From Candidatus Methanoperedens nitratireducens (GTDB lineage: Archaea > Halobacteriota > Methanosarcinia > Methanosarcinales > Methanoperedenaceae): 60,319 nucleotides of DNA. Under the pieces are notes generated by a model that saw only the letters and a program-made list of their open reading frames with translations, made no database searches and was not told the origin of the DNA. The position numbers and the translations under genes are program-made. Of the stretch, positions 12,469 to 55,870 are shown in pieces (within the stretch, counting starts at the first letter, position 1; every line of letters begins with the position of its first letter). The DNA is taken from the NCBI RefSeq assembly GCF_000685155.1, contig NZ_JMIY01000001.1:542402-602720 (forward strand), written 5' to 3'.

Positions 12469-12472
12469 AGAA

Positions 12473-15193: not shown

Positions 15194-15424
15194 ATCCGCG
15201 AGCGCCCCGCCTCCAGGCGCGCGCTGCCAGAGGTGCAGGACAAGCCCGCATCCCATGATGGGGATGGCGCGCCCGGGCGCATTGTGGACAGTTTGAAAGG
15301 TAAAGGCGGTCACCTGATAGCGCCGCCGGAGGGCTTCATAGTAAAGGGTAATGAGGGGCCGCTGAAACAGGGAGAACTGGAGCGGGCTGCCCAGTTTTTA
15401 TTTGCTTATAATATTATCTATCTC
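15194..15424 (+). pseudogene. GC-rich coding-like remnant at right island border
   Basis: A GC-rich segment (about 15190-15395) interrupts the AT-rich surroundings. One plus frame reads as plausible protein, including GRIVDSLKGKGGHLIAPPEG and NEGPLKQGELERAAQF, but it has no good start and its last codons run into the 3' end of the oppositely oriented gene at 15398. I do not recognise the family. With the remnant at 12343 it brackets the island, so insertion or deletion events are likely on both sides. Confidence 0.35.
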
Positions 15425-17375: not shown

Positions 17376-17416
17376 TTAACCGCAAGTTATTTAAACCTTA
17401 ATGATTATTCACACTT

Positions 17417-17444
17417 TTGCTACAAATGTTAATCTTCGTAGCAC
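17417..17444. promoter_or_regulatory. Predicted NikR operator
   Basis: The inverted repeat TGCTAC-N14-GTAGCA (arms 17418-17423 and 17438-17443) sits between nikR and nikM. It resembles the GTGTTAC-N13/14-GTAACAC type of NikR site described in delta-proteobacteria, and its half-site spacing of 20 bases centre to centre is close to the 22 of the E. coli nik operator. Position about 90-115 bases before the nikM start fits control of the transporter operon. Confidence 0.6.
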
Positions 17445-17531
17445 TAAAGTTATATAGTATTATAAAATTGTGATACCATATAATAAGTGCAACAGAAATC
17501 TTGGGAAATCGTATATTAGGAGGTAAAAAAC

Positions 17532-18248
17532 TTGCATATTCCGGATGGATATCTGGGACCGATAACATGGGGTGCCTTGTGGCTGGTGATGATACCGGTA
17601 TGGATTATTGCAGCACGCAAGCTCAAAAAAGATCTGAAAACAAAAAACGTTCCTCTGCTTGCAATGGGCGCAGCATTTTCATTTGTGATAATGATGTTTA
17701 ACATTCCTGTACTTGGAGGTTCAACAGGACATGCTGTCGGTGGCACACTTATAGCTATAGTTTTAGGACCATGGGCCGCCTTGATAGCGATCTCCATTGT
17801 ATTAATAATTCAGGCGTTCTTCTTCGGAGATGGCGGAATAACTGCAATAGCAGCGGAAAGTTTTGTTCTGGGGTTGATTCTGCCTTTTGTGGGATATTAT
17901 GTATATAGATTGATAAGCACCAATGCGGATATAAGTTCATCACGGCAGTGGATTGGCGCAGGCATTGGAAGCTATATAGGTATAAATACTGCGGCTGTAG
18001 TGGCTGGCATTCTTTTAGGACTGCAGCCCATTCTTCATCCCGCTGTGGAAGGAAAATTCCAGTATTTCATGTATCCCATAAGCATCTCGGTACCTGCGAT
18101 GGCTATAGAACATTTAGTATTATTCGGCTTTGTTGAGGCTATCGTAACTTTATCTGTCGTTAGATACCTTCAGCAGACAGACCCATCATTATTAAGAATA
18201 CAAACTAAAGCAGTTTCAATTGAAAAAGCAGGGGGGGTAAGCGCATGA
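17532..18248 (+). CDS. nikM: Nickel ECF transporter substrate-binding subunit NikM (CbiM family)
   Basis: Integral membrane S-component of 238 residues that binds Ni(II) (CbiM homologues bind Co(II)). The family requires an exact N-terminus, MHIPDGYLGP, in which the amino group and His2 bind metal; this fixes the start at the TTG codon at 17532, which has an AGGAGGT site 6 bases upstream. About seven helices follow, with FMYPISISVPAMAIEHLVLFG near the C-terminus. The neighbouring nikR and operator favour nickel over cobalt. It overlaps nikN by 4 bases. Confidence 0.93.
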   Translation: MHIPDGYLGPITWGALWLVMIPVWIIAARKLKKDLKTKNVPLLAMGAAFSFVIMMFNIPVLGGSTGHAVGGTLIAIVLGPWAALIAISIVLIIQAFFFGDGGITAIAAESFVLGLILPFVGYYVYRLISTNADISSSRQWIGAGIGSYIGINTAAVVAGILLGLQPILHPAVEGKFQYFMYPISISVPAMAIEHLVLFGFVEAIVTLSVVRYLQQTDPSLLRIQTKAVSIEKAGGVSA

Positions 18249-18589
18249 ACGGCAAAACAATGAAAAAACTGTGGATCGGAATTGCAATACTCATTGCGCT
18301 CACACCTCTTGGACTCTTAGCAAGCGGAATGGCATGGGGAGAGTGGAGCTCTGAGGAGCTTCAGGAAATGCTTGGCTATGTACCCGATGGTATAAATAAA
18401 GGCGAAAACCTCTGGCAATCTTTATTCCCTGGCTATAGTATCTCAGGTCTTGAGGACAGCTTTCTACAGTCAGGCATCGGCTACATACTATCTGCTGTAA
18501 TAGGAATCGGTTTGATTTATTTAGTGACGATTGCCCTTGGAAAATTCATAGCAAAAAGGGAAGAAGAGAAGGGAAATGAAAATTCCTGA
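18245..18589 (+). CDS. nikN: Nickel transporter accessory subunit NikN (PDGLE-domain type)
   Basis: A 114-residue membrane protein with an N-terminal helix (about 7-27), an extracytoplasmic segment containing PDGI (in LGYVPDGINKGE), close to the PDGLE motif of this family, and a C-terminal helix (about 80-102). NikN/CbiN proteins assist NikM in metal loading. A GGGGGT site lies a few bases upstream. It overlaps nikM by 4 bases and nikQ by 14 bases, so translation is coupled throughout. Confidence 0.88.
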   Translation: MNGKTMKKLWIGIAILIALTPLGLLASGMAWGEWSSEELQEMLGYVPDGINKGENLWQSLFPGYSISGLEDSFLQSGIGYILSAVIGIGLIYLVTIALGKFIAKREEEKGNENS

Positions 18590-19514
18590 CTGGCTTTCAG
18601 AGAGCGCTCCCTGCACATGCTGTACCATCAGCGTGGGCGGGAAGAAAAATTTTGTTGAGAAAACACTGGTGGAGATAGCATGTATGATGGAGCGTTCCAT
18701 ATTTTCAGAAAAATATGTCTCTGCCAAAGGTTTTCTTCAAAGTATTGATCCAAGGGTCAAATTAATAACAATACTGCTTTTAATAATAACAATCAGTTTT
18801 ATCCATAAAACGGAGATTATCCTTGGAATATACGCACTGACTCTGGTCTTTGCATACCTTTCAAAGGTAGAGCTATTCTTTTTTATAAAGAGGGTCTGGC
18901 TTTTTATCCCCATTTTTTCAGGGATGGTAGCTTTTCCAGCCATATTTAATATATTTACGCCCGGTGAGCCGCTTATCACACTCCTGCAGTTTAACAGGAC
19001 TATCCACTTCTGGATATTTGAATTCACAGAGATATCGATTACCAGAGCAGGTGTACTTGGAGCTTTATTGTTCATTTCAAGAGTAGCGACATCAGTTTCA
19101 TTAATAGTTTTATTGACACTCACAACCCGATGGACTGATGTCATGAAGTCACTGCGTACACTGGGAGTACCTCAGATATTTATCCTCGTACTCAGTATGA
19201 CATACCAGTACATCTTCCTCCTTATCAGAGTAGTCCAGGAAATGCACCTCGCTAAAAAGAGCAGGACAATTAGAACGAACAGGACAGGAGAAGGAATAGA
19301 GAAAGAGCAGAACTGGGTAGCTTCGCGGATAGGAACTGTTCTTATGAAATCATATAAAATGAGTGACGAAATTCATTCTGCAATGGTATCACGGGGTTTT
19401 CACGGCGAAATCAAATCCCATGGAACGTTCAAAATAAGAAACATCGACCGCGTCTGGACCATCTTCTCACTGGCATTTATCACAGGAGTTATCTGGCTGA
19501 ACTATCTTGTATGA
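18576..19514 (+). CDS. nikQ: Nickel ECF transporter T-component NikQ (CbiQ family)
   Basis: Energy-coupling membrane subunit of 312 residues. The N-terminal region is unusual, with a CTCC cluster (SAPCTCCTISVGG, about 10-22) before the normal CbiQ start; it might bind metal. The core has the SIDPRVKLI segment (about 56-64), five to six hydrophobic helices, and the cytoplasmic coupling helices with SRTIRTNR and AMVSRGFHGE (about 222-282), which contact the ATPase. It starts inside the end of nikN and ends 6 bases before nikO. Confidence 0.92.
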   Translation: MKIPDWLSESAPCTCCTISVGGKKNFVEKTLVEIACMMERSIFSEKYVSAKGFLQSIDPRVKLITILLLIITISFIHKTEIILGIYALTLVFAYLSKVELFFFIKRVWLFIPIFSGMVAFPAIFNIFTPGEPLITLLQFNRTIHFWIFEFTEISITRAGVLGALLFISRVATSVSLIVLLTLTTRWTDVMKSLRTLGVPQIFILVLSMTYQYIFLLIRVVQEMHLAKKSRTIRTNRTGEGIEKEQNWVASRIGTVLMKSYKMSDEIHSAMVSRGFHGEIKSHGTFKIRNIDRVWTIFSLAFITGVIWLNYLV

Positions 19515-25527: not shown

Positions 25528-28500
25528 ATGAGTAGGATAGGAAGTATTATAAAATCGTATAGCAGCAAGAACTATTTAATACATATATTTTTAATTTTTG
25601 CATTGTTTGCATCGTTAATTTTTATAACCATAGTTCCAGTAGAGGCTACACCAGGTAATTACACCGGTGACTCTTCAACTTGTAAGACATGCCATTCTGC
25701 CCAGTATGCATTATGGGCAAATAGCACGCATACCAGTAAACTGATTACACGCGATGATGCTATTGCAAGAGGTTATCCCAATCCGCCTGGTGGCTATAGC
25801 TGGGAAAATGTGAGCTTAGTGATAGGCAGCAAATGGAAGATACGTTATGTGAACGATACTGGTTATATCATCACGACAGGCGGCAAGAACCAGTTCAATG
25901 TAGATGATCAAATATGGACTGACTACAATAAGGACGCAATCAAGAAATACAACTGCGGTCACTGCCATGGCACTGGTTATCTCAGTAACGTTGCCGATAC
26001 GGTCAAAGAACCATTCAGGACATTGAGAAATCAGGGCCAGATCCCGGATGGTGTGTATGACAACAGTTCGACACCAGGCTTTAAGGGATACTGGGCTGAG
26101 AACAGTGTGGGTTGTGAAGCCTGCCATGGACCTGGAGAAGAGCATGTAAACAGTCCATCCACATTGAACATCAGGAATGCCTCGGTAGTCAGGAATACTC
26201 CGCAGATCTGCGGTGACTGTCACAGCAGGCCTCTTGCCAGTAAATACGGTGAATATGATGATTTCAAACCGTACCCTTATGGTGTCAACGATTCTCTTCT
26301 GATTGAAACCCTGACCGATAATAGCCCGATGCCAACTGTAAATTACTCCCTAACCGGTGGGCATCATGAACAATGGGAAGACTTGAAAGCCAGCGGTCAT
26401 GCTGCCAATGCTGTAAATTGTGCTAATTGCCATGGCGGACATGCTATTTCAGATCAGGCGTATGCAGGTGGACCAACTGGTAAGATAAAGTTCAACAATG
26501 GTACTGTTTATCCAGCAGCCGTAAAACAGAGCTGTACTGATTGTCATGCATCAGAATTACCAAAACATGGGTTATACAATGACAATTCTAAGTGTATAAG
26601 CTGCCACATGCCGCAAAACAGGAAATCATCAAATAAGATCGATCTGCGGTCGCACTGGTTCGATATAACAGCGTTGAGGGATAACAAGAACGCTGGAGTG
26701 CACGCGGCAAATTTGCCCGCATTAGAGAGTTTTGCACCGCAGTCATGCAATACATGTCACAAAGCCACACCAGGTAATTTCACAGGTGACTCATCGACCT
26801 GTAAGGTATGCCATAAAGATGAGTATGCTCTCTGGGCCAATACCACGCATACCAGTAAATTGATTACACGGGATGATGCCATGGCACGAGGATATCCCAA
26901 TCCACCGGGTGGCTATTCCTGGGAAAATGTAAGCTTTGTTATCGGCAGCAAGTGGAAGATCAGATATGTTAACGATACTGGTTATATCGTCACGACAGGC
27001 GGCAAGAACCAGTTCAATATAGATGATCAAATATGGACAGACTACAATAAGGATACGATCAAGAAATACAACTGCGGTCACTGCCATGGCACTGGGTATC
27101 TCAGTAACGTTACCGATACGATCAAAGAACCATTCAGGACATTGAGAAATCAGGGCCAGATCCCGGATGGTGTGTATGACAACAGTTTGACACCAGGCTT
27201 TAAGGGATACTGGGCTGAGAACAGTGTGGGTTGTGAAGCCTGTCATGGAAATGGAGGAGATCACGTACTCAGTCCATCCACATTGAACATCAGGAATGCC
27301 TCGGTAGTCAGGAATACTCCGCAAATCTGCGGTGACTGTCACAGCAGGCCTCTTGCCAGTAAATACGGTGAATATGATGATTTCAAACCGTACCCTTATG
27401 GTGTCAACGATTCTCTTCTGAGTGAAACCCTGACCGATGATAGCCCGATGCCAACTGTAGATTACTCCAAAACTGGTGGACATCATGAACAATGGGAAGA
27501 TTTGAAAGCCAGCGGTCATGCTGCCAATGCTGTAAGTTGTGCTAATTGCCATGGCGGACATGCTATTTCAGATCAGGCGTATGCAGGTGGACCAACTGGT
27601 AAGATAAAGTTCAACAATGGTACTGTTTATCCAGCAGCTGTCAGCCAGACATGTACGATCTGTCATGCACTTGAACTGCCAAAACATGGCTATTACACTG
27701 TTAATTCTGAGTGTATAAGCTGCCACATGCCGCAAAACAGGAAATCATCAAATAAGATCGATCTGCGGTCACACTGGTTCGATGCAAATGCGATGAAAAA
27801 TAATAAGAACACCGGAGTACATGCGCTCAGCTTCGCAACATTACAGAATATTGATGAATCTTGTGTTAACTGTCACAGTTCAGCCAATCTCAGCAAGCCA
27901 ATAGACACAGCAAGTGCAGGCGTACATAAAGACATCAATAAATCAGAAGGTATTGGCCTCCTGAAAAGCTCAGACTGCAAATCATGTCATTATGGTGCTT
28001 CAACCAGCAGTATTCTCAGCCGTAACTGCGATGCATGTCATGTAGACCAAGTAATAACGTCTCCGAAAGTGGACGAGCACACAGACAGAAGCAAGGACGT
28101 AGCAGTTACAGCGAGCTGTGCACTGTGCCACAACAACAGTATCAATAAATTCAAGTATAGTAATAATGCAAGCGTAAGCCATTACGGTACTGCTAATTCT
28201 CTAATTAATACCTCAAACTGTATCGACTGTCATAACGGTGCTTATACCGGGAATGCAAGCTGGGGCTCACCAGTAAATATCTCGACGAGCAGTAAGAGAC
28301 AGCATACTGAAACACAGACCAATCAGTGCGACTCATGCCACAAAGATTCAAGTGTTCCGACATTAGCTGCCGTAACTTTCCACAACTCAAGTGTGAAAAC
28401 CGCATCTCCACCGCCAGTGAATCAGAATTTGGGTTTGTACGATACCCGTATAGCATTTGTACCAAGTGAAACATGCAAAGGTTGTCATGTACAACCTCAA

Positions 28501-29853
28501 AACACACATCACTTGATGTTAGGCCCTAACGGAAATACAAACCTGGGTTGTTTGGATTGTCACCCAACACAGGGTACTTATCCCAGCCAATATCAGTATA
28601 TTGAAAGGAGTTGTCAGAACTGTCACAACGGTACAGCATTCTGGGCAAATCCTGCTGTCAACCTGGCACAAATTAGACCACCTGGCAGACCACATCATAA
28701 CACGACAAAGAACTCTGCATCAAATCTGGCGGTACAGGCTGCATATTGGGCAATAGATAGACAGTGCAATAAGTGTCACGGCAGTAGTATACTGGCAAAC
28801 TATAATGATGGACATTACTATCCATCATACGATACATCTCTTGTAACTCCCCTTGCTGATTACAAGGTGAAAAACGCAACCACTGGAAAAGAATGGGGCG
28901 GCTGTAGAGCGTGCCATAATAGTGGACCAGATAACATTCTCAACAACCGTGACACGCATCATAACGCAACAAGCGGTATGCAAGGCAGAAAATGTACCTA
29001 TTGCCACGTTGGCAATCCTTCATCACCAAGAACTGATGGAAGTGCAAGCCCGCTGAGAATTTACCTGACCGATGAATACGGCCTTGGATGGGACACCACT
29101 AATCTGCATATGGAACTCAGAAATTCAACAATATTGAATGCTGGCGATGCGGTTAATGGCACAGGATGTCAACAGTGTCATAGTGTAGTATCGCTTCACA
29201 ACATCCAGTATAACTATGTACAAGGCGGCGGACCTGCTGGTTATGGTCACATAAACAATAACGCAGATTGCAATGTTTGCCATGCGTTCTGGGATGCAGG
29301 CATGGATAATCCGTTCTTAGGATCTGTTGCTCCAGGTATGTCCAGCGTGACTCCAGATACATTGACTCCAGGTGTAGCCTCAGAAGTGACCATCACAGGC
29401 ACCAACTTTGTGCAGGAAGGATACACGACTAATGTGTTGGTAGACGGGAATGCTATGGCTGTAGTATCTGTTACAGATACACAAATAGAGGTGACTATTC
29501 CAGCATTGAGTGCAGGCGTTCACAGTATCCAGCTTGAGAAAGGCGGCGTGACGAGCAAATTGTCTTCACTGGCAGTTATAGAACCAGTAGATGTTGTAAC
29601 AGCGAAGCTGGCCTCAGGAAAGATAACTGTTACCGGTACAGGGTTCAGTGTTCAGCCTGATCCAGCATTCAGCGATCTTGGCGTATTCGTTACGAAGAAG
29701 GGTCAAGAAACTACATTCAAGGCTGAGGTCATCAGCTGGTCTGATACTGAGATTGTAGTCTCTGGCTCTGGAGCAAGCACAGGAAACCTGCTGGAAGTCA
29801 AAGCATTGAATGGTGAAGACTCAACATCAATATCGGGTGGAGGCAAAAAATAA
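25528..29853 (+). CDS. Giant secreted multiheme cytochrome c, 29 heme sites, with C-terminal TIG/IPT-like domains
   Basis: A 1,441-residue extracellular cytochrome. It begins with a signal peptide (hydrophobic about 18-38, ending VEATPG). Two tandem octaheme modules follow (about 42-414 and 415-785), each with eight CxxCH sites in the same order (for example CGHCHGTGY, CEACHG, CGDCHSRPLASKY, CANCHGGH, CISCHMPQNR). A third region (about 786-1265) has thirteen more CxxCH. The total is 29 sites by my count. The end (about 1268-1441) is heme-free, with TIG/IPT-type immunoglobulin-like strands (ITGTNF, IEVTIPALSAGVHSIQLE). No C-terminal anchor or S-layer domain is seen, so it is probably released or bound to other surface proteins. 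Its role is probably long-range electron transfer to an outside acceptor or partner (inference). Confidence 0.9.
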   Translation: MSRIGSIIKSYSSKNYLIHIFLIFALFASLIFITIVPVEATPGNYTGDSSTCKTCHSAQYALWANSTHTSKLITRDDAIARGYPNPPGGYSWENVSLVIGSKWKIRYVNDTGYIITTGGKNQFNVDDQIWTDYNKDAIKKYNCGHCHGTGYLSNVADTVKEPFRTLRNQGQIPDGVYDNSSTPGFKGYWAENSVGCEACHGPGEEHVNSPSTLNIRNASVVRNTPQICGDCHSRPLASKYGEYDDFKPYPYGVNDSLLIETLTDNSPMPTVNYSLTGGHHEQWEDLKASGHAANAVNCANCHGGHAISDQAYAGGPTGKIKFNNGTVYPAAVKQSCTDCHASELPKHGLYNDNSKCISCHMPQNRKSSNKIDLRSHWFDITALRDNKNAGVHAANLPALESFAPQSCNTCHKATPGNFTGDSSTCKVCHKDEYALWANTTHTSKLITRDDAMARGYPNPPGGYSWENVSFVIGSKWKIRYVNDTGYIVTTGGKNQFNIDDQIWTDYNKDTIKKYNCGHCHGTGYLSNVTDTIKEPFRTLRNQGQIPDGVYDNSLTPGFKGYWAENSVGCEACHGNGGDHVLSPSTLNIRNASVVRNTPQICGDCHSRPLASKYGEYDDFKPYPYGVNDSLLSETLTDDSPMPTVDYSKTGGHHEQWEDLKASGHAANAVSCANCHGGHAISDQAYAGGPTGKIKFNNGTVYPAAVSQTCTICHALELPKHGYYTVNSECISCHMPQNRKSSNKIDLRSHWFDANAMKNNKNTGVHALSFATLQNIDESCVNCHSSANLSKPIDTASAGVHKDINKSEGIGLLKSSDCKSCHYGASTSSILSRNCDACHVDQVITSPKVDEHTDRSKDVAVTASCALCHNNSINKFKYSNNASVSHYGTANSLINTSNCIDCHNGAYTGNASWGSPVNISTSSKRQHTETQTNQCDSCHKDSSVPTLAAVTFHNSSVKTASPPPVNQNLGLYDTRIAFVPSETCKGCHVQPQNTHHLMLGPNGNTNLGCLDCHPTQGTYPSQYQYIERSCQNCHNGTAFWANPAVNLAQIRPPGRPHHNTTKNSASNLAVQAAYWAIDRQCNKCHGSSILANYNDGHYYPSYDTSLVTPLADYKVKNATTGKEWGGCRACHNSGPDNILNNRDTHHNATSGMQGRKCTYCHVGNPSSPRTDGSASPLRIYLTDEYGLGWDTTNLHMELRNSTILNAGDAVNGTGCQQCHSVVSLHNIQYNYVQGGGPAGYGHINNNADCNVCHAFWDAGMDNPFLGSVAPGMSSVTPDTLTPGVASEVTITGTNFVQEGYTTNVLVDGNAMAVVSVTDTQIEVTIPALSAGVHSIQLEKGGVTSKLSSLAVIEPVDVVTAKLASGKITVTGTGFSVQPDPAFSDLGVFVTKKGQETTFKAEVISWSDTEIVVSGSGASTGNLLEVKALNGEDSTSISGGGKK
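25651..27888 (+). repeat. Tandem duplication of the octaheme module, period 1,119 bp
   Basis: The same positions repeat at a constant distance of 1,119 bases (373 codons), for example CCAGGTAATT at 25651 and 26770, and AACTGCGGTC at 25951 and 27070. Long stretches are identical at the nucleotide level, including silent positions, for instance around 25951-26080 and 27070-27200. This points to a recent duplication or continuing gene conversion. Confidence 0.9.
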
Positions 29854-42539: not shown

Positions 42540-43718
42540 CTACCTCTTTACTACCACGGCAATACCCATACCCCCGCCAATGCACATGGTTGCAAGGCCG
42601 TACGTACCGTCCCTTCTTCTTAACTCATACAGAAGTGTGGCCAGTATCCTTGAACCTGTGGCCCCTATTGGGTGTCCGAGGGCGATAGAGCCGCCGTTAA
42701 CATTAGCTATATTTACATCCCAGCCCAGTTCCCTATCGACCGCAATTGACTGGGCTGCAAATGCCTCATTCTCCTCTACCAGATCGATATCATCCATGGT
42801 TAAACCCGCGCGCTTAAGGGCTACTCTGGTTGCACAAACAGGCCCCATACCCATTATCTCAGGAGGTATGCCACAGTACCCGTAGCCTATGATAGTTGCC
42901 ATGGGTTCAAGTCCTTTTTCTTTTGCTTTCTGTTCAGACATCAAAAGAACAGCAGCAGATCCATCATTGACACCTGATGAATTGCCAGCAGTTACTGTAC
43001 CGTTCTTTTTAAATGCTGGTTTCAGTCTTGATAGAATACCTGCAGTCGTGCCGAACCTGGGAAACTCATCTGTATCAAAGACTATCGGTTCGCCCTTTGG
43101 CTGTGGAACTGTTACCGGAACAATCTCCTCTTTGAACTTACCTGCCTTGATCGCAGCTTCTGCTTTACTCTGGCTTTTTGCAGAGAATTCATCCTGCTCT
43201 TCCCTGGAAATGCTGTACCTCTCTGCTATATTCTCTGCCGTTATTCCCATATGGACATTCTTGAAGATATCCCATAACCCATCGTATACCATCGTGTCTG
43301 TAACTTCATCATTCCCCATCCTTATTCCCCAGCGGGCTTTCTTGAGCGCATACACTGATGTTGACATGGACTCTACCCCGCCAGCAAGGACAATATCCTG
43401 ATCACCAAGCATTATGGACTGGGCACCAAGGACAACAGATTTCAAACCAGAGCCGCATACTTTGTTCACAGCATAGGCAGGTACCTTATCCGGGATCCCT
43501 GCCCAGATCGAGGATTGTCTTGCTACATTCATGCCCTGGCCGCCTGCGATCACATTCCCCATGATGACTTCATCCACTTCACCAGGATCAAGGTCTACCC
43601 GTTTCAGGGCATCCTTCAATACCACTGAACCGAGCTGTCCAGCCGGCATGTCTTTAAGAGTTCCTCCAAATTTTCCTACTGCGGTTCTTGTTGCAGATAC
43701 AATAACTACTTTATTCAT
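42540..43718 (-). CDS. phaA: Acetyl-CoA C-acetyltransferase (thiolase)
   Basis: Condenses two acetyl-CoA into acetoacetyl-CoA, the first step of PHB synthesis. The 392-residue enzyme has all catalytic residues of the biosynthetic thiolases: nucleophile C88 (NKVCGSGLKSV), H349 (GGSIALGHPIGATG) and C379 (TMCIGGGMG). Length equals that of PhaA. It lies between two reductases of the phaB type in the same orientation, within the operon that runs from 47414 to 41683. Confidence 0.94.
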   Translation of the reverse strand: MNKVVIVSATRTAVGKFGGTLKDMPAGQLGSVVLKDALKRVDLDPGEVDEVIMGNVIAGGQGMNVARQSSIWAGIPDKVPAYAVNKVCGSGLKSVVLGAQSIMLGDQDIVLAGGVESMSTSVYALKKARWGIRMGNDEVTDTMVYDGLWDIFKNVHMGITAENIAERYSISREEQDEFSAKSQSKAEAAIKAGKFKEEIVPVTVPQPKGEPIVFDTDEFPRFGTTAGILSRLKPAFKKNGTVTAGNSSGVNDGSAAVLLMSEQKAKEKGLEPMATIIGYGYCGIPPEIMGMGPVCATRVALKRAGLTMDDIDLVEENEAFAAQSIAVDRELGWDVNIANVNGGSIALGHPIGATGSRILATLLYELRRRDGTYGLATMCIGGGMGIAVVVKR

Positions 43719-43775
43719 TTTATTCCCACCTACTTTAACATATCAGATATAATGTCCAGCACAATGACCGTTGCA

Positions 43776-44516
43776 TTATATGACCAGTCCACCATCCACG
43801 CCGAGCACTGCCCCATTGACAAACCCCGCCTCATCCGAGGCAAGATACAGGTATGCATACGCAACATCAATAGGTTCTCCCAGCCTGCGGAGGGGTGTTT
43901 TTTCAATCGTCATTTTAATAAATTTTTCAGGCACCTTTCCGGTCATAGGAGTCTCTACAAATCCAGGGGCTACTGCATTGGTCCTTATGCCTTTCCTTCC
44001 AAGTTCTTTTGCCAGGGTCTTTGTCAGTCCAATCAACCCGGCCTTGGCTGAGGTATAATTTACCTGCCCGATATTGCCATATATTCCTGTAATAGAGGAC
44101 GCATTGATAATTACGCCACTCCCCTGATTGATCATGATATCAACTACTGCCTGGATGCAATTGAAAGCCCCTTTAAGATCTACATTGATAACGCTGTCCC
44201 ACTGCTTCTCAGTCATTTTTGTGACCAGAGCATCCTGGTTAATACCTGCATTATTTATCAGAATATCAATTCTCCCGAATCTATTGATAACCTCATTAAC
44301 AAATCTCCTCAGGTCTTCTCTACTTGTGACATCCCCTCTAACACAGATTGCCCTTCCTCCACTCTCATTTATTTCATTGCAAACTTTTTCTATCGTCTCC
44401 AGTGTCCTTCCAATTGTAGCTATACTCGCTCCTTCCCTGGCGAACAGCAGTGCAGTCTCTTTGCCAATACCGCTTCCTGCCCCTGTAATGATTGCAACTT
44501 TGTCTTTAAGTCTTAT
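43776..44516 (-). CDS. phaB: Acetoacetyl-CoA reductase (PhaB/FabG type), apparently started at AUA
   Basis: A 246-residue short-chain dehydrogenase of exactly the usual FabG/PhaB length. The frame reads (ATA)RLKDKVAIITGAGSGIGKE at the N-terminus, then INNAGINQD, the SSITGIYGNIGQVNYTSAKAG active-site segment and VDGGLVI at the end. No ATG, GTG or TTG occurs between the upstream in-frame stop and an internal ATG at 44216, which would remove the whole cofactor site. The ATA at 44514-44516 lies where the family's initiator Met is expected, 6 bases after a GGGGGAG site, and overlaps the phaC stop as ATAA. There is no frameshift: the reading frame is continuous. This is the second reductase of the operon. 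Confidence 0.88.
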   Translation of the reverse strand: MRLKDKVAIITGAGSGIGKETALLFAREGASIATIGRTLETIEKVCNEINESGGRAICVRGDVTSREDLRRFVNEVINRFGRIDILINNAGINQDALVTKMTEKQWDSVINVDLKGAFNCIQAVVDIMINQGSGVIINASSITGIYGNIGQVNYTSAKAGLIGLTKTLAKELGRKGIRTNAVAPGFVETPMTGKVPEKFIKMTIEKTPLRRLGEPIDVAYAYLYLASDEAGFVNGAVLGVDGGLVI

Positions 44517-45688
44517 CCTGTTCTCCCCCTTGATTTTCCCCTTGCTCTTTTACCTTTCTCCTGTGCTCCTTCAGGAAGAGATCTGGGTTTTAGCCACTCT
44601 GCGATCCTGGGAACGACCTCTTTTTGGGATCTGGAGCCAACAAAGATACCTATGTGTCCGGTCGGGAAGACAAGCGTCTCTTTGTCCTCACTCGATACAG
44701 CATCAGCCAGCGGTAGACTTGCCTCATTTGGAACCAGATGATCGGTTTCGGCCATGACATTAAGCAGTGGCATGGTTATCTTTCTCAGATCGATCCTCTT
44801 CCCATCGAGCATCATCTCGTTCTTGATGAGGAGGTTCTTCTGATATAGATCCTTCATGAACTGCCTGTATGCTTCTCCTGCCTGTCCAGGGCTATCGAAT
44901 ATCCATTTCTCCATTCTAAGAAAATTCTTGATGATCTCTTCATTCCTGCGCTGACATTCTTTATCATCAGTTTTGCATTCAAGTCGCTCAAACATGCCTA
45001 CATATTTGTCAATCAGAAGCCTGAACGGGTCTGTTAACAGGAACCCTATGTTCAACAGGTCCCCCGGCACTATGCCATAGAAATCCACGACCCTGTCCAC
45101 ATCAAGTGCTTTTGCCCAGATATGAAGAAGTCCTTTATCGGTATCAAAGTTTATAGGTGTCACTAAAGTGACCAGGTTCTTCACCTTTTCAGGATGCAGT
45201 GTGGCGTACATAACAGAAATTGTCCCTCCCTGGCATACGCCAAAGAGCGTAACCTTATCAGATCCTGACAGTTCTCTGATCTTGTCCACGGCATTGTTTA
45301 CGTAGCCCTCCACATAATCGTTAAGCGTGAGGTATCGATCAGAGCCTGATGGGTATCCCCAGTCAATAATATAGACATCAAGACCCTCATCAAGCAGCTT
45401 CCTTACAACGCTTTTCTCAGGCTGCAGGTCAAGGATATAGTAGCGGTTCACACATGCATATATTATGAATACCGGAACTGGAGATGTTCTCTCTACCGTG
45501 GGGATATAATGCATAAGTTTCATCTTATCTTCTGTGTAGACTACCTCATGAGGCGTTGTTGCCACGGTGATCTCCTCGGGATGCTCCAGCAATATCTCCA
45601 TTCCTTTTACGAATCTTCTGGTATCTTCTATTAAGTCAGTTGCGTACGTGTACGCAGGTGTTACAGGTGCAGGCGCAGGTGTGCTCAT
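44513..45688 (-). CDS. phaC: Class III poly(3-hydroxyalkanoate) synthase subunit PhaC
   Basis: Polymerises 3-hydroxyacyl-CoA into PHA granules. The 391-residue product has the alpha/beta-hydrolase fold with the lipase-like box GVCQGG containing nucleophile C152, the Asp D316 (AETDHLVPN) and His H345 (PTGHIGIFV), corresponding to C149, D302 and H331 of the Allochromatium class III enzyme. The length (about 355-390) fits class III, which requires PhaE; phaE lies directly upstream with a 4-base overlap. The C-terminus has an extra basic tail (KGKRARGKSRGR). Confidence 0.96.
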   Translation of the reverse strand: MSTPAPAPVTPAYTYATDLIEDTRRFVKGMEILLEHPEEITVATTPHEVVYTEDKMKLMHYIPTVERTSPVPVFIIYACVNRYYILDLQPEKSVVRKLLDEGLDVYIIDWGYPSGSDRYLTLNDYVEGYVNNAVDKIRELSGSDKVTLFGVCQGGTISVMYATLHPEKVKNLVTLVTPINFDTDKGLLHIWAKALDVDRVVDFYGIVPGDLLNIGFLLTDPFRLLIDKYVGMFERLECKTDDKECQRRNEEIIKNFLRMEKWIFDSPGQAGEAYRQFMKDLYQKNLLIKNEMMLDGKRIDLRKITMPLLNVMAETDHLVPNEASLPLADAVSSEDKETLVFPTGHIGIFVGSRSQKEVVPRIAEWLKPRSLPEGAQEKGKRARGKSRGRTG

Positions 45689-46344
45689 TTCCCTCCCCCC
45701 CCGGTTCTCCTGATTAAATCATCCACTGCTCTCCTGAGGGATTGCAGCTCCTGGTTTATACTATCGATATCAGCCTTTGTAGGAAGATCCCTTGTACTCT
45801 CTGAGAGCTTTTTGACCTGGCTGGCTAAATCCTTCTCTGTCTTCTTAAGAGAATACACTTCATAATTTATATCATCGATCTCACTTTTTGTAGGGATAAA
45901 GTTCAATGGCTTAAGATAATTCTCCTCAAGCATTTCCCGATTATTTTTCATGAATTCCATGTAATACGATATGAACGTTCCCATATCTGAAGAGAAATGA
46001 CTTGTTTTAAAGAATTCTTTGAACGTTTCACTGTATGTTTCAATCCAGATACTATAAAAATCTTTATATTGATCGGGAATGATCTCTCCCTTCGCCCCTA
46101 CCAGCATCTTCTCACCCATCCTGCGCATGGCCTCCATGAACACATTCTGGAAATTGATGACAGATTCCATCCATGCTGAATAGAGGTTAACAGAGACAGA
46201 GGCATTCTTCGCCAGTTTTTCGATTCTCTCACGTGCAGGCCCCACGGCAGGTATCTCAAGTAACCTGCCAGTAGTAGCTTCGTATGTCTTTAACCACAGA
46301 TCAAAAACTTCATGTGTGTATTCAAAGCTTGATCTATCATCCAT
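45685..46344 (-). CDS. phaE: Class III PHA synthase subunit PhaE
   Basis: Partner of PhaC. The product (219 residues from the ATG at 46344; 233 from a GTG at 46386) is helical and rich in aromatic and acidic residues, with FEYTHEVFDLWLKTYEATTGR near the N-terminus and YKDFYSIWIETYSETFKEFF in the middle, both PhaE-like. Its last 60 residues form a coiled coil (SLKKTEKDLASQVKKL, then SINQELQSLRRAVDDLI). I favour 46344 because it lies just after the stop of the previous gene, whereas 46386 would overlap that gene by 40 bases; neither has a strong ribosome-binding site. The stop overlaps the phaC start by 4 bases. Confidence 0.88.
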   Translation of the reverse strand: MDDRSSFEYTHEVFDLWLKTYEATTGRLLEIPAVGPARERIEKLAKNASVSVNLYSAWMESVINFQNVFMEAMRRMGEKMLVGAKGEIIPDQYKDFYSIWIETYSETFKEFFKTSHFSSDMGTFISYYMEFMKNNREMLEENYLKPLNFIPTKSEIDDINYEVYSLKKTEKDLASQVKKLSESTRDLPTKADIDSINQELQSLRRAVDDLIRRTGGGGK

Positions 46345-46346
46345 AT

Positions 46347-47414
46347 CTAGACCCGGCTTGCTGGACTGGGGGGTGGCCTCATCCACATGTTTGCCATGGT
46401 GGCAAACGTATCTGCATATATCCTGGCTGAATTCTTTACAGGCTCCATCATCTGTCTCATCGGACCCATCATGGGCATATTCTTGAAGAAATCATCAAAA
46501 GCCCTCTCGTACATCTTCGTCCATGTACTGTAGAATTCTCGAACCGCCTCTGGATCAGCGGTGCGCCTTGATAGATCCATAGTCCTCTCTGACATCTTCT
46601 CAAGTGCAGTCATCCAGGATTTATACATGTTCAGATAGATATCTGTACTCTGCAAGAAATTATCAAGCATCTCCCTTGAGGGTCTCATGGCCTGAACATT
46701 AAATAACCCGCTGTAGGTCTCCCTGTACATATCCATCCATTGATTATAAAATTCCCTGTAGGCCTCAGGGCTTGCGCCTCCTCTTGAGATCTCTGTCATT
46801 CGCCCGGTAAGCCTCATCATGGAATCAACCATCGGCCAGTATATATTTCTATAAGTATCTCTCCAGAGTTTTGATACCTGCGCGAAATTTCTTAAGTAGA
46901 TATTCGGCATGCCTGTGTAACTCTCAAATATCTCCCTTGTACTTTCCCTGGCTGGCATTGCAAGGAAATCATCGAGTATTTTTCCATATGACCTGGTCCA
47001 CGTCTCGTAGGACATCCTGTATTTCTCAGGATCAGGCTCACCCATGAGCATCTCCTGGGTCTTTTTGGTGTTCTCCTCAAGCTCGTTAGCCCATGATCTG
47101 AAGAGGTTACCCAGATCCTCTGCACTGGCCACGAATCTCTCAAGCGCCTCTCTATCGGGTACCCTGGTCGGGATCGGATATAATCTACCAAAGGTATTCT
47201 GGTACATCCTCATCCATTCATCATAAAATTCCCTGTACCCCTCAGGTTTAGTCTCTTTTGGGAGTTCAGCAGCCTTCTCAATCAGTTCCCCTGTAGATTC
47301 AATCCACGGTTTATACAGATTTACATATGTATCCTCCCACATTTTTGCAACAGTTGTATAGCTATCAGCCCATACATCAAAAATACCTTTTCTCACTTCG
47401 CCTGTTTTCATCAT
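46347..47414 (-). CDS. PhaE-like/phasin-like protein with four internal repeats
   Basis: First gene of the PHA operon, 355 residues. The protein is helical, without a signal or membrane helix, and rich in Met, Tyr, Trp and Glu. A motif of the form YREFYxxWxxMYxxxFxxLF recurs about every 85-100 residues: YREFYDEWMRMYQNTFGRLY, then YRMSYETWTRSYGKILDDFL, YREFYNQWMDMYRETYSGLF and VREFYSTWTKMYERAFDDFF. The same signature occurs once or twice in PhaE, so this looks like a multiplied PhaE/phasin relative. It probably coats granules or supports PhaC-PhaE (inference). An AGGAGGAG site lies 9 bases before the ATG. Confidence 0.75.
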   Translation of the reverse strand: MMKTGEVRKGIFDVWADSYTTVAKMWEDTYVNLYKPWIESTGELIEKAAELPKETKPEGYREFYDEWMRMYQNTFGRLYPIPTRVPDREALERFVASAEDLGNLFRSWANELEENTKKTQEMLMGEPDPEKYRMSYETWTRSYGKILDDFLAMPARESTREIFESYTGMPNIYLRNFAQVSKLWRDTYRNIYWPMVDSMMRLTGRMTEISRGGASPEAYREFYNQWMDMYRETYSGLFNVQAMRPSREMLDNFLQSTDIYLNMYKSWMTALEKMSERTMDLSRRTADPEAVREFYSTWTKMYERAFDDFFKNMPMMGPMRQMMEPVKNSARIYADTFATMANMWMRPPPSPASRV

Positions 47415-49705: not shown

Positions 49706-52700
49706 CTATGGCGTCACGCGCAGGATGCCCCACTGTCCTCCATCAAATGCGAATGAGGCCTGGTTCCTGTAGAGGTAGTCACCCGTGACATTGAAAGCGC
49801 CTCCCGCCCCATTCTTCAGGACGATATCGAAGTGATCAGACGGCCCATGGCCTTCCTGGGCCCCTATCCACTGTGAAAGCGGATTGTCTCCGATCTTCGT
49901 GGAGTTATTTGTGTAGGGCTCGCGCTCCCAGATATGGCCGTGTACCTGGAAGACATGGTTGCGTGCATGTCCGCCCGGCTCAAGTATGCGGAATCTGACC
50001 TGGGTTCCAGCCCTGGCCGTGAACACAGGGGTTACAGGATCGCCGCCAACCTGCGCATTTGAGAGCGCATTGCTAAAGTCAAAGGTGCGTGTGAATTCCA
50101 GATCGGCATCCGGCGCAAAACCCATGCGCTTCCATATCGGCTCGGTGCGGTAGTTGAGTGCTTTCTGGCCTGAGTCTTCAGGGTCTTCCTCCTCTGCCAG
50201 ATTCGGGACAGCATCTCCGGCAGCGAACATACGGCTAATAGTCTTGCTGAAAGGCAGTGTCACGTCCGATCCGAAGCGCAGGTTCACATCGTCCTGGAAG
50301 AGCAGGACAAACTCGCGGAAACCCGTGCCGTCGGGCAGTGTAACGGTTGCAGACGCGCGGGAGTCTGCATCTTCAGTCCAGTTCGAGCCCTGTGGCTCTA
50401 TGATCAGAGCCCCGATAGCGCCCTTGCTGCTGTGCTTGATCGGATCTGATGAGATCAGGTTGGTTGCGCCGAACTCCACGGGTGTGGCGACGCGGGTGCC
50501 GTCAGGATTCACTGTGATCTTGCCTGCATACCATCGATACTTGGCAACACCTCCGGGTCCAACGGTCTGAACATCATTGAAGCCCGCGTTGGCGCCGTCA
50601 CTCGATGTTATATCATACTCGAGCAGTTGCGGGTGCAGTCCCACCTGGTTAGAAGGAGCAACCTGATTGGCATTGAAGTTCTCCACGATCATGGGCAGGG
50701 TGCTGAAGCCTGCCAGGTCAGGAAGTGTTTCCGGCAGATTATTGGTCAGCGTAACATCAATGCAGTCTCCTGCATTTGCACGCAGGATAAGCGGCTCGAC
50801 GGGCACGCCAGGCTTCAGTTTTCCTGTCTTCTTATCAATGTCTCTCGTATTGATGTACAGGATAGCAGTGGGATCGTTGAGAGCCCCCCCGTTCTCTGTA
50901 CGGTTGTTGTACACAAGCGTGCCCCCGGGCAGGACCTGCTGTGCTGTAACTGCTGTGATGCTTAATTTCCTGCTGGGTGCGTTCCTCGGACAAACGCCAC
51001 TGAAGTCTCTTGGATTTCTATTCGGAGGCGCCTTGCCGCCGGGATTACTGGGCAGGGTCAGCAGATCTGGTTGCAGACCAGTGCCGCCGTTGTATGCGCG
51101 CATAATTCCCCACAGGCCGTTCCACAGGTCATCCGATGCTGAACCCGTCTGGTACATGTAGTCTGCAAAGGGAGTGTTGCCTTTCACGGCTGAAAGCGGG
51201 GGCACCACGAATTCGAAGTGATCGTCAATCCCCATCGCCTGCGAGTTGCGGTAACCTGAATTTGGATCTGATGGTTCCTGCAGCCACCTGATTCCATGTA
51301 TATTGGTGTTGTGTCCCTCCTCGTGGGCACCAACCTGTATACGGATCTGGACACTGTCATTCTCGTATGCACGTAAAATCGGCGTGAACGGGTCGCCAGG
51401 TTGCACTCCTGCGGTCAGCGGCGGGTACGGGGTATCCCCGAACTGCGTGTTGAGCTGGGGTATGGCTCTGTCTGTTCTTGACTGGAAGGCAAACGACAGA
51501 TCCCCGGCAGGGCCGGAAGCCTGCGTACTGGTTGCTGCATTAAGCACGCGCAGCGCCACAGGCTCATTCCGGTAGTTCACGGTCATCGTGCCGATATCAT
51601 CAGCAGATATGGCCTCCGGACAGGGCAGAGGAACACCGCCAGGGCATTTATCTGGCCTGGCAAGCAGGAAGGGCAAACCGACTTCCTCTCTTGCAGGCGG
51701 GTTGATCACATTTTCCGGGTCAGGTATGGGGTTGCCATTCTCATCTAAACCGCCGCCAGCCTTATATGCAGGCTGGAAGTCGGCGAACTGGAACGCGAAC
51801 TCACGGTAGCTGTTTTTCTTGTCCTTTGTAAGAATATCAGCCCTCCAGCTTGTAGGCCCTCCGTCGAAGCGCGTGCCGAGGATCTCACCCGTCTCAGAGT
51901 TGCGCCATGTGGATTTTTCAGGTTCTACCAGAAGGCTTGCGTAGAGCCCTGTCTGCTGGGCAGTGGAGGGACTGAAGTGGTCGTGCGAGAAAGCGGTGCG
52001 CAGCGTCCTGTCCTCCCCTCTGTTATTCAGGACATTATCTGCATACCAGCGCTGGATAGTTGTCTGGGCTCCGAGTGCGCTTAGTCCTCCGATACTTTCA
52101 CCAAAGAAGGGATGCGGCCTTGGCTCCAGATCCTCTCTATTTGGCCCTCCTTGAACAGGTATCCAGCTTCCACCGGCTGCCTTGATGGCATCGATACGCT
52201 CAATCACTTCACCCGGGCTGAAGGTGCCATCTTCGTAATTCCACCCATTGGCTGATCCATCAGATGAAGTGACATCGAACTTCACCAGGTGGATGTGCTG
52301 TCCGATAATGTCTGTGGGCGTCCTCACCTGGTAATCGTCCAGTTCGTATTCTTTGGGAACAAGGTTGGTGTGGTTGAAGTTGATGCAGTCGTTGGTGTTG
52401 GCTCGGAAAAAGAACGGCTCAGGCGGCCTTGTCCCGTTCAATGTAGCGTTAACATCACCCCACAGCGTGATGATGCGGGACTGCGGAAAGTGCCAGCCCA
52501 CCTTGTTCATTACGAGGTCAAGCTGGATGACCGCTGCCGAATAGTTGCGGGGAGCGCCAGCGGCCTTTCCATAGTCATCAACACATGGGTCTGCATATGG
52601 CGCGCCCGGCACAGGCGGCCGGCCGTTGGTGAAGAAATAGGCCGGGGTACCATCAGTCCTGAAGCTTTGATGTGTACGATTGGAGTGGTACGCCATGGCA

Positions 52701-54763
52701 GCCAGCTCAGCCGGCGTTCCCTCTTCAGGGAGAGCTATTGCTGTGGCTTTGCGAAGTTCCTTGCTGAAGTCCAGCCGGTTCTGGACTGAATCAGCCTCGC
52801 CGCTAACGATTATATGGCGCGGCAGCCCGCCGTCATCCAGGGTATCGAGCGGAGGCTTTGGCGGGCGGTGGCCGGCCAGGCCTGGAATGAAGAACGGATA
52901 GCCCGGATTTCCGATCTCACCCTTGTCAGGCAGGGGGGTTATATTGATCTGTCCATTGATAATCTGCACCTGTGCTCCAGGCATGGGCGCCATGGGCCTG
53001 CCAGGGATTGGCACAGTCGCAGGAATAGGGGTGCCGTTTTTTATCTCAGCATCGGGATAAGCGCGTGAACCCGGCGTGGGATTCCCATCTTCATCAAGAG
53101 CAGTCCCGGATTCAAACACATCCTGAATGCGCCAGAGTGCCCACATTCCCTGTGCAAAATGCGGATAGAAGTGGCAATGGAAAATGGCATCTCCAACCTG
53201 CTTGTTACGGTTGCCAGCGCCGTTGTATGCGATCTCGTACGTGTATCCGCTTCCCGGACCTACCATCTGTCCATCCAGGTAGGTTGAGTTATCGCTGTCA
53301 GGTGTAAAGAGCCACTGCTGGGCATGGAGGTGGAAGAGGTGATGCTCTTTCGGTCCTGCATGCAGGTTCCTTATTTTAACATGGTCGCCGATATAGCTTG
53401 GAAATACATTGGATGGGTCATCAGGGTAAAGAGTCCTGGTTGCCTTTGGTCCCGGGATCAGTTTTCCTGATTTATCCACCGCATTGGCAGGAATATCCAC
53501 TACCATTGCAGGGTCACCCACAGCCCATGAGGTGAGGAAGAACTCCTCGTACTTGCATTCAACACAATCAAACATAGGCCCGACGCCAAGGCGGTTGGCG
53601 AGAATCTCAGCACCTGCACCGCCTGCGCCGTAATTGATTGCAAATCCATCCCTGACACCGTGTAACGTATGCTCCAATACAGGGTCCTGGAACTGCGGGA
53701 ATGCCTGAAGCGCGAAGATCTCATCATGGAATATCACCGTGAATTCACGGAAGGGCTCATTCCGGCTTCGCTTCTCATCAGATTTTAAAGGCACATTCAC
53801 AGGATTGGGTAGATAAGTCCCTTTGGGGAAATTATCCCTGTTCGGTCCTGTGATGATGGCATTGATATCCGAGTGCACGATCTCCTCGATTCCGCCCACG
53901 TCTCTTGTCATCCTGATAATAGGCAGCCCGGCTTTCCCTTCGCTTTTAAAAGGTTCGGTGTTCGGGTACACTGAATCATAATTTATAATCGGTTGTCCGT
54001 CAGGTGTTGTCCCGGTTGTTGCAAGCTGCAGTTCAGCCGCTGTCAATTGACTGCGGTACCACTCAGCTCCCCTGGGCTCGACATTGATGGCCCCAAAGAG
54101 TCCGAACGCCAGTGAACCGCCATCTCCCTCCCCGCCAGTTGTTGCACCTGTGCTGTAGAGCAGGTATGTATTCTCACGCTCTGCAAAGATGGTGTATTTT
54201 GCATTACCGCCGGGAGCAACAAGGCTGTCAGGATTGGTGCCGACGTTTGAGCCATCATCACTTATATTATTCACAAGCTGCATCCCCAGAACATGGATTG
54301 AGGCATTTCGGGTGGCTGGCTGGTCACCGATCGGGTCCGGGGCAAGAAGATTTGTGAAATTGATCTCCAGACAATCGCCCACGTTCATTCGCAGCACGAT
54401 GGGGCGCGGGCGTTTATCAGGGCGTAGTGAAACAGCACCGGGTACTGCAGCGCCACCATCTGTCAGGGGCACGCCGCTGGCATCCACCACGTCCCGCCTG
54501 AGAGCATAGATCATCCCTGCAGGATTCCATGCTCCAAGACGGTTGTAGAAAAACGGCTGGTCTAAAGCAACAACATCCGCGGTAATCGTTCGCTCACACT
54601 GTGCTAAAGCCCCTGCCCCGGAAATAGAAAGAGGCAGCATTGATATCACAATAATAGAAAACGATAAAAATCTTGCAAATTTTTTTATTCTAGTTTCTGC
54701 AGGTAATCTACCTGCCGTCTTTTCCCCCTCATTTGATTTAGAGATTACATTCTCCGTTTTCAT
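49706..54763 (-). CDS. Giant multicopper oxidase of the MofA/MnxG type
   Basis: An exported protein of about 1,685 residues, close in size to Leptothrix MofA (about 1,660), a presumed Mn(II) oxidase. A signal peptide follows a charged N-terminus (hydrophobic about 28-52, ending near GALAQC). Many cupredoxin units follow. Copper motifs seen: HxxHxH in KEHHLFHLHAQQW, HCHxxxHxxxxM in FHCHFYPHFAQGMW (the type 1/type 3 motif with axial Met), HIH in IGQHIHLVKF, HDHFSPSTAQQTGL, and HGH in VFQVHGHIWERE. These give a complete set for a trinuclear cluster plus type 1 site. I start at ATG 54763 (GAGG upstream) rather than 54784. Its codon usage is GC-richer than its neighbours, which suggests transfer from bacteria (inference). 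Confidence 0.88.
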   Translation of the reverse strand: MKTENVISKSNEGEKTAGRLPAETRIKKFARFLSFSIIVISMLPLSISGAGALAQCERTITADVVALDQPFFYNRLGAWNPAGMIYALRRDVVDASGVPLTDGGAAVPGAVSLRPDKRPRPIVLRMNVGDCLEINFTNLLAPDPIGDQPATRNASIHVLGMQLVNNISDDGSNVGTNPDSLVAPGGNAKYTIFAERENTYLLYSTGATTGGEGDGGSLAFGLFGAINVEPRGAEWYRSQLTAAELQLATTGTTPDGQPIINYDSVYPNTEPFKSEGKAGLPIIRMTRDVGGIEEIVHSDINAIITGPNRDNFPKGTYLPNPVNVPLKSDEKRSRNEPFREFTVIFHDEIFALQAFPQFQDPVLEHTLHGVRDGFAINYGAGGAGAEILANRLGVGPMFDCVECKYEEFFLTSWAVGDPAMVVDIPANAVDKSGKLIPGPKATRTLYPDDPSNVFPSYIGDHVKIRNLHAGPKEHHLFHLHAQQWLFTPDSDNSTYLDGQMVGPGSGYTYEIAYNGAGNRNKQVGDAIFHCHFYPHFAQGMWALWRIQDVFESGTALDEDGNPTPGSRAYPDAEIKNGTPIPATVPIPGRPMAPMPGAQVQIINGQINITPLPDKGEIGNPGYPFFIPGLAGHRPPKPPLDTLDDGGLPRHIIVSGEADSVQNRLDFSKELRKATAIALPEEGTPAELAAMAYHSNRTHQSFRTDGTPAYFFTNGRPPVPGAPYADPCVDDYGKAAGAPRNYSAAVIQLDLVMNKVGWHFPQSRIITLWGDVNATLNGTRPPEPFFFRANTNDCINFNHTNLVPKEYELDDYQVRTPTDIIGQHIHLVKFDVTSSDGSANGWNYEDGTFSPGEVIERIDAIKAAGGSWIPVQGGPNREDLEPRPHPFFGESIGGLSALGAQTTIQRWYADNVLNNRGEDRTLRTAFSHDHFSPSTAQQTGLYASLLVEPEKSTWRNSETGEILGTRFDGGPTSWRADILTKDKKNSYREFAFQFADFQPAYKAGGGLDENGNPIPDPENVINPPAREEVGLPFLLARPDKCPGGVPLPCPEAISADDIGTMTVNYRNEPVALRVLNAATSTQASGPAGDLSFAFQSRTDRAIPQLNTQFGDTPYPPLTAGVQPGDPFTPILRAYENDSVQIRIQVGAHEEGHNTNIHGIRWLQEPSDPNSGYRNSQAMGIDDHFEFVVPPLSAVKGNTPFADYMYQTGSASDDLWNGLWGIMRAYNGGTGLQPDLLTLPSNPGGKAPPNRNPRDFSGVCPRNAPSRKLSITAVTAQQVLPGGTLVYNNRTENGGALNDPTAILYINTRDIDKKTGKLKPGVPVEPLILRANAGDCIDVTLTNNLPETLPDLAGFSTLPMIVENFNANQVAPSNQVGLHPQLLEYDITSSDGANAGFNDVQTVGPGGVAKYRWYAGKITVNPDGTRVATPVEFGATNLISSDPIKHSSKGAIGALIIEPQGSNWTEDADSRASATVTLPDGTGFREFVLLFQDDVNLRFGSDVTLPFSKTISRMFAAGDAVPNLAEEEDPEDSGQKALNYRTEPIWKRMGFAPDADLEFTRTFDFSNALSNAQVGGDPVTPVFTARAGTQVRFRILEPGGHARNHVFQVHGHIWEREPYTNNSTKIGDNPLSQWIGAQEGHGPSDHFDIVLKNGAGGAFNVTGDYLYRNQASFAFDGGQWGILRVTP

Positions 54764-55057: not shown

Positions 55058-55870
55058 CTAAATTCTCCTGGAGCGCCTCTCATAGTAACTGAATAAATCC
55101 TCCCCCCATCTGATTGCAGATATATCAAAGCTCAGGATATTCTGGTGGAAATCGTATGTACCATCCTTTAGAAAGAGCCTCATCGAGAGGAAAAAGTCAG
55201 TCACAGCAAAGGTAACATCAATTCTTTCATCACAGACCATTATGCTGACATTATCATGACATAAGCCTATTTCCAGTTCTTCACTGTATTCCTCCTCTAT
55301 CTTCTCCAGCAATTCTCTTGTTACTATGATAGAAACAGGTATGCCTCTCTGCGCCAGATCAATAACGTATTCAGGGTATCCTGGATACAGCACAGAGGAT
55401 ACTCCTTTCATCCATCTTGCATTCAGGAGGTTCTTCATGTATTCCCTGTGGGGTTTCAGGATATCTATTGGTGTACTCTTTAGTATCTCATATTTCCCAA
55501 GCTCATGAAGCCTCATATGAAACTCCTCCGGGATTCCTGAGATCTTATGCTCGCTCCAGAATTTCCAATCTTCCCCCAGGATTCTCATGATCTCTTTAAA
55601 CTGATAGAAATATTCAGCCAGTATTTTTCCAATCTCTGTCAGGGCATACTCCCTGTTTTTCTGGTAAATCAGTTTCTTCTCTTCCATTTTGCGAATCTGA
55701 GGGATAATACCTGAAGATGTAACCAGAAGAGATTCCCTGATCTCACCCAGTGTCTTCGGACCCTCACGCAGCAGGAGGAGTAGATTCTTCCTTTTCTCGG
55801 AAAGAACCAGGAGGTTAAGCAAAACCCCGTTATCTTCGGTCTTCTCTGGAACAGATATTCCACCACTCAT
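55058..55870 (-). CDS. Winged-helix regulator with FilR1/DUF1724-type domain
   Basis: A 270-residue transcription factor. A winged helix occupies about 20-90 (KRKNLLLLLREGPKTLGEI, then VTSSGIIPQIRKMEEKKLIYQ). The larger C-terminal part (about 110-265) matches the DUF1724 domain of the methanogenic filament regulator FilR1, with LKPHREYMKNLLNA, then VLYPGYPEYVIDLAQRGIPVSIIV and LSMRLFLKDGTYD. Multiple members of this family are typical of Methanosarcinales. It is divergent from the TIM-barrel gene, and near-palindromes in that spacer may be its operators. Confidence 0.88.
   Translation of the reverse strand: MSGGISVPEKTEDNGVLLNLLVLSEKRKNLLLLLREGPKTLGEIRESLLVTSSGIIPQIRKMEEKKLIYQKNREYALTEIGKILAEYFYQFKEIMRILGEDWKFWSEHKISGIPEEFHMRLHELGKYEILKSTPIDILKPHREYMKNLLNARWMKGVSSVLYPGYPEYVIDLAQRGIPVSIIVTRELLEKIEEEYSEELEIGLCHDNVSIMVCDERIDVTFAVTDFFLSMRLFLKDGTYDFHQNILSFDISAIRWGEDLFSYYERRSRRI

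Follow-up and report, generated by a model that had tools for sequence, protein, structure and literature searches.

A putative two-gene MnxG-type oxidase unit in Candidatus Methanoperedens nitratireducens, with signs of oxidase exchange over a resident beta-propeller partner

The 60,319-nucleotide stretch of contig NZ_JMIY01000001.1 analyzed in this work (hereafter, the window) carries the gene of a giant multicopper oxidase followed by that of a membrane-anchored YVTN beta-propeller protein. Judged from sequence, the two genes make up a genuine, reduced MnxG-type oxidase unit that was not expected in such a host, and the pair clearly bears the mark of an exchange of the oxidase alongside a partner that stayed resident. 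We somewhat favor the reading that it constitutes a reduced mnxG-type unit whose product would be a secreted, O2-consuming metal oxidase, acting most likely on Mn(II) and used under micro-oxic conditions, the oxidase having been exchanged while the partner was kept. No report linking MnxG to Methanoperedens was found among the papers searched, a set that leaves most subscription journals outside its scope; one review mentions that ANME-2d have multicopper oxidase domains, but does not elaborate (PMC5244752).

The features of the unit are located in Table 1, where the length of the oxidase is counted from the first ATG. The size of about 1,685 residues given by the initial annotation corresponds to a start at the in-frame ATG of codon 8, seven codons inside the 1,692-codon ORF, the upper coordinate of this minus-strand gene then being 54763. 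The same annotation described the gene as GC-rich compared with its surroundings, and indeed its GC content is 54.6% and its GC3 of 0.58 is the highest among 48 window ORFs (mean 0.43, s.d. 0.07); elsewhere in the window, a low-GC island (positions 12000-15500, GC about 0.30-0.36) deviates in the opposite direction. The oxidase is present as a single copy in a genome of 3.20 Mb (10 contigs, 99.8% complete). Contamination as the source of the gene was ruled out by the 721-kb length of its contig, the completeness of the genome, and the synteny of the oxidase with a polyhydroxyalkanoate (PHA) operon, which is conserved in a second species. Furthermore, the oxidase is under purifying selection, with a dN/dS of 0.18 between the window species and isolate BE2012_43_12, and this ratio together with the complete set of ligands argues for a working enzyme.

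Table 1. Position of the oxidase, its copper motifs and its partner in the window.
Feature	Position	Strand	Basis
MnxG-type multicopper oxidase, 1,692 aa	49706..54784	-	ORF; NF041487 1,625 bits; 9bxa E 8e-120
Oxidase N-terminal region, residues 1-62, signal-peptide-like hydrophobic segment	54599..54784	-	sequence reading
HxxHxH: H482 (type 1), H485, H487 (type 2/3)	53324..53341	-	invariant in 54 sequences
HCHxxxHxxxxM: H536, C537, H538, H542, M547 (type 1 + type 3; axial Met)	53144..53179	-	conserved throughout 54 sequences, but for the axial Met of two
HxH: H830, H832 (type 2/3)	52289..52297	-	invariant in 54 sequences
HxH: H934, H936 (type 3)	51977..51985	-	invariant in 54 sequences
Partner: membrane-anchored YVTN beta-propeller, then YtkA-like Ig-type domain, 629 aa	47761..49650	-	Pfam/NCBIfam; predicted model

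When aligned with 53 bacterial and archaeal homologues, the window oxidase retains all eight histidines of the trinuclear centre and the four type-1 ligands, in agreement with the full motif set initially claimed. The twelve positions are identical across the homologues, with the exception of the axial methionine, which is replaced by Leu in the oxidase of Methanoperedens isolate Mnv1 and by Phe in that of Rubrobacter. The initial annotation had named two outcomes as fatal to its assignment, namely missing type 2/3 ligands and grouping with unrelated structural cupredoxins; none of these ligands is missing in the alignment of 54 sequences, and no such grouping occurred in the trees. In this set of 54, the protein also displays the plan of giant MnxG/MofA-type oxidases, with four copper motifs in order and more than 1,200 residues. 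Pfam recognized only two short multicopper oxidase domains, and the NCBIfam MnxG model NF041487 (1,894 positions) matched from 1 to 1894, in three stretches, at 1,625 bits, short of the curated threshold of 3,100 bits, so that the protein is not filed as an MnxG equivalog. This match, like that to Bacillus MnxG in the PDB (9bxa, E 8e-120), nevertheless exceeds by far what chance would produce. Other members of the window clade scored 1,836 (L026), 1,603 (L018), 1,498 (L016) and 1,410 bits (L010), and more distant oxidases scored 739 (Leptothrix), 699 (Nitrosomonas), 333 (Bacillus-type) and 241 bits (Mnv1). By profile score and operon, rather than by tree position (the trees comprise no verified P. 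putida MnxG sequence), the window clade comes closest to P. putida-type MnxG. Thus, the original match to the MofA/MnxG group stands as regards the giant multicopper oxidase plan, and is refined in that the profile lies nearer to P. putida-type MnxG than to MofA or Bacillus MnxG.

The only solved structure recovered by sequence search at E values up to 0.1 was 9bxa (Bacillus MnxG). For a model predicted for residues 62-1000 (pLDDT 79.6, pTM 0.86), the top-ranking PDB entry was again 9bxa (E 1e-38, TM 0.55 by query); a fold like that of Bacillus MnxG is therefore predicted for this part, and residues 1001-1692 align to 9bxa by sequence. AlphaFold input excluded three plasmid-derived rows. The alanine found in 9bxa at the position of H542, a type-1 histidine, was rejected as a family difference, this structure being that of an engineered H340A mutant.

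The gene assignment of the initial annotation was correct for the oxidase and overlooked the partner, which starts 55 nt downstream. Sequence and domain annotation places a membrane helix at the N-terminus of the partner, and its predicted model (pLDDT 78) has as top PDB match 1l0q, an archaeal YVTN surface-layer propeller. A YVTN beta-propeller gene downstream of the oxidase is a trait of P. putida-type MnxG loci. Full-length orthologues of the partner were found in exactly the three Methanoperedens genomes harboring the oxidase, always adjoining the oxidase gene, and homologues lie closely 3' of the oxidase gene in 16 bacterial loci, often with a SCO gene next; the identity between the partner and its bacterial counterparts is only 19-30%. 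In the window, phaE, phaE and phaC come downstream in place of SCO chaperone and cytochrome c genes: no cytochrome c gene adjoins the oxidase pair, and a search of the three oxidase-bearing Methanoperedens genomes revealed no SCO1-SenC protein. The pha genes belong to a class III PHA synthase operon (42540-47414, minus strand; two PhaE-like genes, PhaC, SDR and thiolase) situated directly after the pair, and divergent PhaE copies are numerous across the genus. A similar PHA operon occurs in further Methanoperedens, where it is not accompanied by the oxidase-partner pair; in Mnv1, the two genes of the pair are located elsewhere. Directly upstream of the oxidase, on the same strand, lies a gene for a FilR1-like winged-helix regulator (55058-55870, minus strand), absent from that place in the BE2012_43_12 locus; no ORF of at least 80 aa separates it from the oxidase.

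The host was initially recognized as an anaerobic methanotroph of the Methanoperedens type, consistent with the presence of mcrA in its genome and with its named congeners, which are Candidatus Methanoperedens. The oxidase-partner pair occurs in 3 of 31 Methanoperedens genomes; among 60 relatives (30 of the same genus), the oxidase was found in two, namely BE2012_43_12 (G024, locus L008), an isolate from African mines whose oxidase is 80% identical to that of the window, and Mnv1 (G009, loci L009 and L055), with 33-37% identity. Across 393 genomes of the phylum, the MnxG model matched only this genome and four distant ones, the latter each weakly. The viral contig and phage collections searched contained no relatives, and thus no viral or Borg-type vehicle was seen there. 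Neither cytochrome bd nor a full-length heme-copper oxidase was found in the host genome, and so the window oxidase may be among the few O2-consuming enzymes of this archaeon. The window also encodes a 1,441-aa MtrC/MtrF-like cytochrome with 29 CxxCH motifs (25528-29853, plus strand), and other multiheme cytochromes lie at 3359-4791 and 6929-9003. Members of the genus respire Mn(IV) (PMC8280799, PMC10386581) and handle Fe (PMC8280799).

The oxidases of the window and BE2012_43_12 grouped with each other (100/100) in trees built from 49, 30 and 19 sequences, and this group was nested within bacteria, in a clade (100/100) comprising Acidobacteriota (Pyrinomonadaceae), Chloroflexota and the alphaproteobacterium Indioceanicola. 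This placement and the high GC3 both fit an acquisition of the oxidase from bacteria, as the initial annotation had hinted; a high GC content was not by itself taken to demonstrate transfer, and it is the trees that support a bacterial origin. The Mnv1 oxidase branched far off, near Bacillus and Rubrobacter, and a single clade of all three archaeal oxidases was rejected (p-AU 2e-9, Mnv1 being a long branch). The three Methanoperedens partners, in turn, formed one clade (100/100). By these phylogenies, the partner represents an old Methanoperedens lineage and the oxidase falls inside a bacterial clade.

The two proteins diverge together in bacteria, where the identities of oxidase and partner are correlated (120 pairs, r = 0.93), and do not in Methanoperedens, which leads to the proposal of oxidase exchange over a retained partner. 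Between the window and Mnv1, identity is 33% for the oxidase and 66% for the partner, 11 s.d. above the bacterial line, and between the window and Pyrinomonadaceae (Acidobacteriota) it is 67% for the oxidase and 28% for the partner, 5 s.d. below that line, these s.d. figures being descriptive since the pairs are non-independent. A joint origin of oxidase and partner from one bacterial donor was rejected on the basis of this mismatch in divergence. Between the window and BE2012_43_12, dS reaches 0.75 for the oxidase, compared with 0.25 for its partner and 0.17-0.19 for the flanking pha genes, and the identity of the two oxidases falls in residues 1126-1575, where the window oxidase is in parts closer to Acidobacteriota than to BE2012_43_12. 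In the signal-peptide region, the BE2012_43_12 and Mnv1 oxidases are alike (0 of 2,000 shuffles), although the mature proteins differ; the signal region of the window oxidase displays no clear resemblance to that of Mnv1. On the simplest reading, the oxidase would have been exchanged, wholly or partly, on more than one occasion while the partner was kept. The direction of exchange is one that we infer.

The trinuclear copper site of multicopper oxidases is where O2 is reduced, and its presence implies that the window oxidase would carry out this reaction. In the proposed mechanism, the giant oxidase would be exported and kept at the surface by its membrane-anchored partner. At this extracellular site, its type-1 copper would accept single electrons from a reduced metal, Mn(II) most likely and Fe(II) possibly, and pass them to the trinuclear centre, where O2 would be reduced to water. 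Mn(II) is probably the substrate, given that both of the nearest characterized models are Mn oxidases. During micro-oxic exposure, O2 would thus be removed and Mn(III/IV) oxide deposited on the cell surface, and one may speculate that the nearby multiheme cytochromes could later reduce the oxide formed. The oxidase would have been taken from bacteria and swapped over a partner kept by the lineage. Against the MnxG-type assignment, the profile score is about half of that expected for equivalogs, and both the SCO genes and the adjoining cytochrome c of the P. putida operon are missing; against the use of O2, the lack of the two respiratory oxidases named above leaves it not otherwise indicated in this genome. 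A bolder version, which we regard as doubtful, is that the archaeon oxidizes Mn(II) with trace O2 and later respires its own Mn oxide, thereby covering both halves of the Mn cycle with a surface store of oxidant, the oxidase being repeatedly exchanged and the beta-propeller remaining as a resident partner for docking or maturation.

Alternatively, the protein could be a multicopper oxidase of general use in scavenging or detoxifying O2, laccase-like or cuprous/ferroxidase-like, that protects the oxygen-sensitive methane metabolism and for which Mn is incidental. This is a reasonable possibility that we hold at less than even, as it suits both an organism treated as an anaerobe, without other complete O2-reducing oxidases of the kinds sought, and the fact that many homologues belong to organisms not known for Mn oxidation, such as Sorangium and Chloroflexota MAGs; however, the whole-length profile of the family is that of MnxG, neither laccase nor CueO, and the propeller partner of MnxG operons has been retained. 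The type-1 copper of some multicopper oxidases oxidizes Fe(II). An Fe(II) oxidase working at redox interfaces, with electrons passed to O2, would suit a genus with the Fe handling cited above, but appears unlikely given that the nearest characterized models are Mn oxidases, and that no ferroxidase family match was found in Pfam or NCBIfam beyond the multicopper oxidase domains.

The initial annotation suggested that the enzyme may run in reverse with a metal oxide. This reading, widened here to a transfer of electrons to metal oxide in the course of Mn(IV) respiration, would suit the respiratory habits of the genus and the cytochrome with 29 CxxCH motifs in the window. It did not hold up and we consider it highly improbable: the full O2-reducing trinuclear site is kept and nothing indicates a reductase, the gene is restricted to so few genomes of a genus whose metal respiration is attributed to multiheme cytochromes, and no heme or quinone partner adjoins it. 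Finally, a patchy distribution and a high GC3 could also point to a recently acquired, functionless passenger gene, which is very unlikely in view of its intact state in two species under the selection described, the retention of all ligands, and the presence of the partner in all three genomes.

MnxG-family enzymes are investigated as bacterial, aerobic Mn(II) oxidases, and the presence in an anaerobic methanotroph of an intact member subject to purifying selection would imply that these archaea meet and use O2. With this oxidase, a possible coupling of Mn cycling to methane oxidation inside one cell can be put to a direct molecular test. Furthermore, the keeping of the partner while the oxidase was exchanged suggests that this uncharacterized YVTN protein is a functional part of MnxG systems generally.

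In comparison with known systems, the window oxidase shares with Leptothrix discophora MofA the giant multicopper oxidase family, the twelve ligands and 40% identity in the best segment, whereas the two belong to separate clades and the window locus has neither mofB (Mip-type) nor mofC (cytochrome c), the companions of mofA in the Leptothrix mof operon (PMC8218464). The MnxG of Bacillus sp. PL-12 (9bxa, Mnx complex) is the nearest solved structure both by sequence and by predicted fold, but has 1,227 aa and falls far outside in the tree. Bacillus-type giant oxidases also extend to a family of anaerobes, one with all copper ligands being present in the Peptococcaceae MAG BRH_c8a (L053); some Chloroflexota oxidases (L018, L019, L024, L050) reach about 2,650 aa, with tandem-95 repeats after the oxidase part in L018. 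Bacillus MnxG works with MnxE/MnxF subunits, and no small MnxE/MnxF-like genes were seen beside the window oxidase. The Mnv1 oxidase comes from the same genus, has a similar length (1,691 aa) and is paired with a partner about 66-67% identical to that of the window, in contrast to its low oxidase identity and its axial Leu. Just upstream of it, two additional multicopper oxidase ORFs of 475 and 570 aa are found (L009, 6739-9891), and the same locus encodes a secreted protein (17219-18607) of a family with no Pfam match and a motif like NGLxLQLCxDPxLCFFDP; members of this family are encoded close to the giant oxidases of Mnv1, Chloroflexota and Leptothrix (L009, L018, L019, L024 and L027), and none was found in the genome of the window.

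The P. putida GB-1 operon comprises mnxG, a "40-residue YVTN beta-propeller" protein, two SCO1/SenC proteins, a cytochrome-c/ABC-binding protein and SurA (PMC11409713 Table 4; PMC8218464 Fig. 2). The window unit differs from it in its archaeal host, in an oxidase with roughly half the curated score, and in a locus without SCO, cytochrome c and SurA genes, whereas the whole-length profile match, the ligand plan and the order of the first two genes are alike in both.
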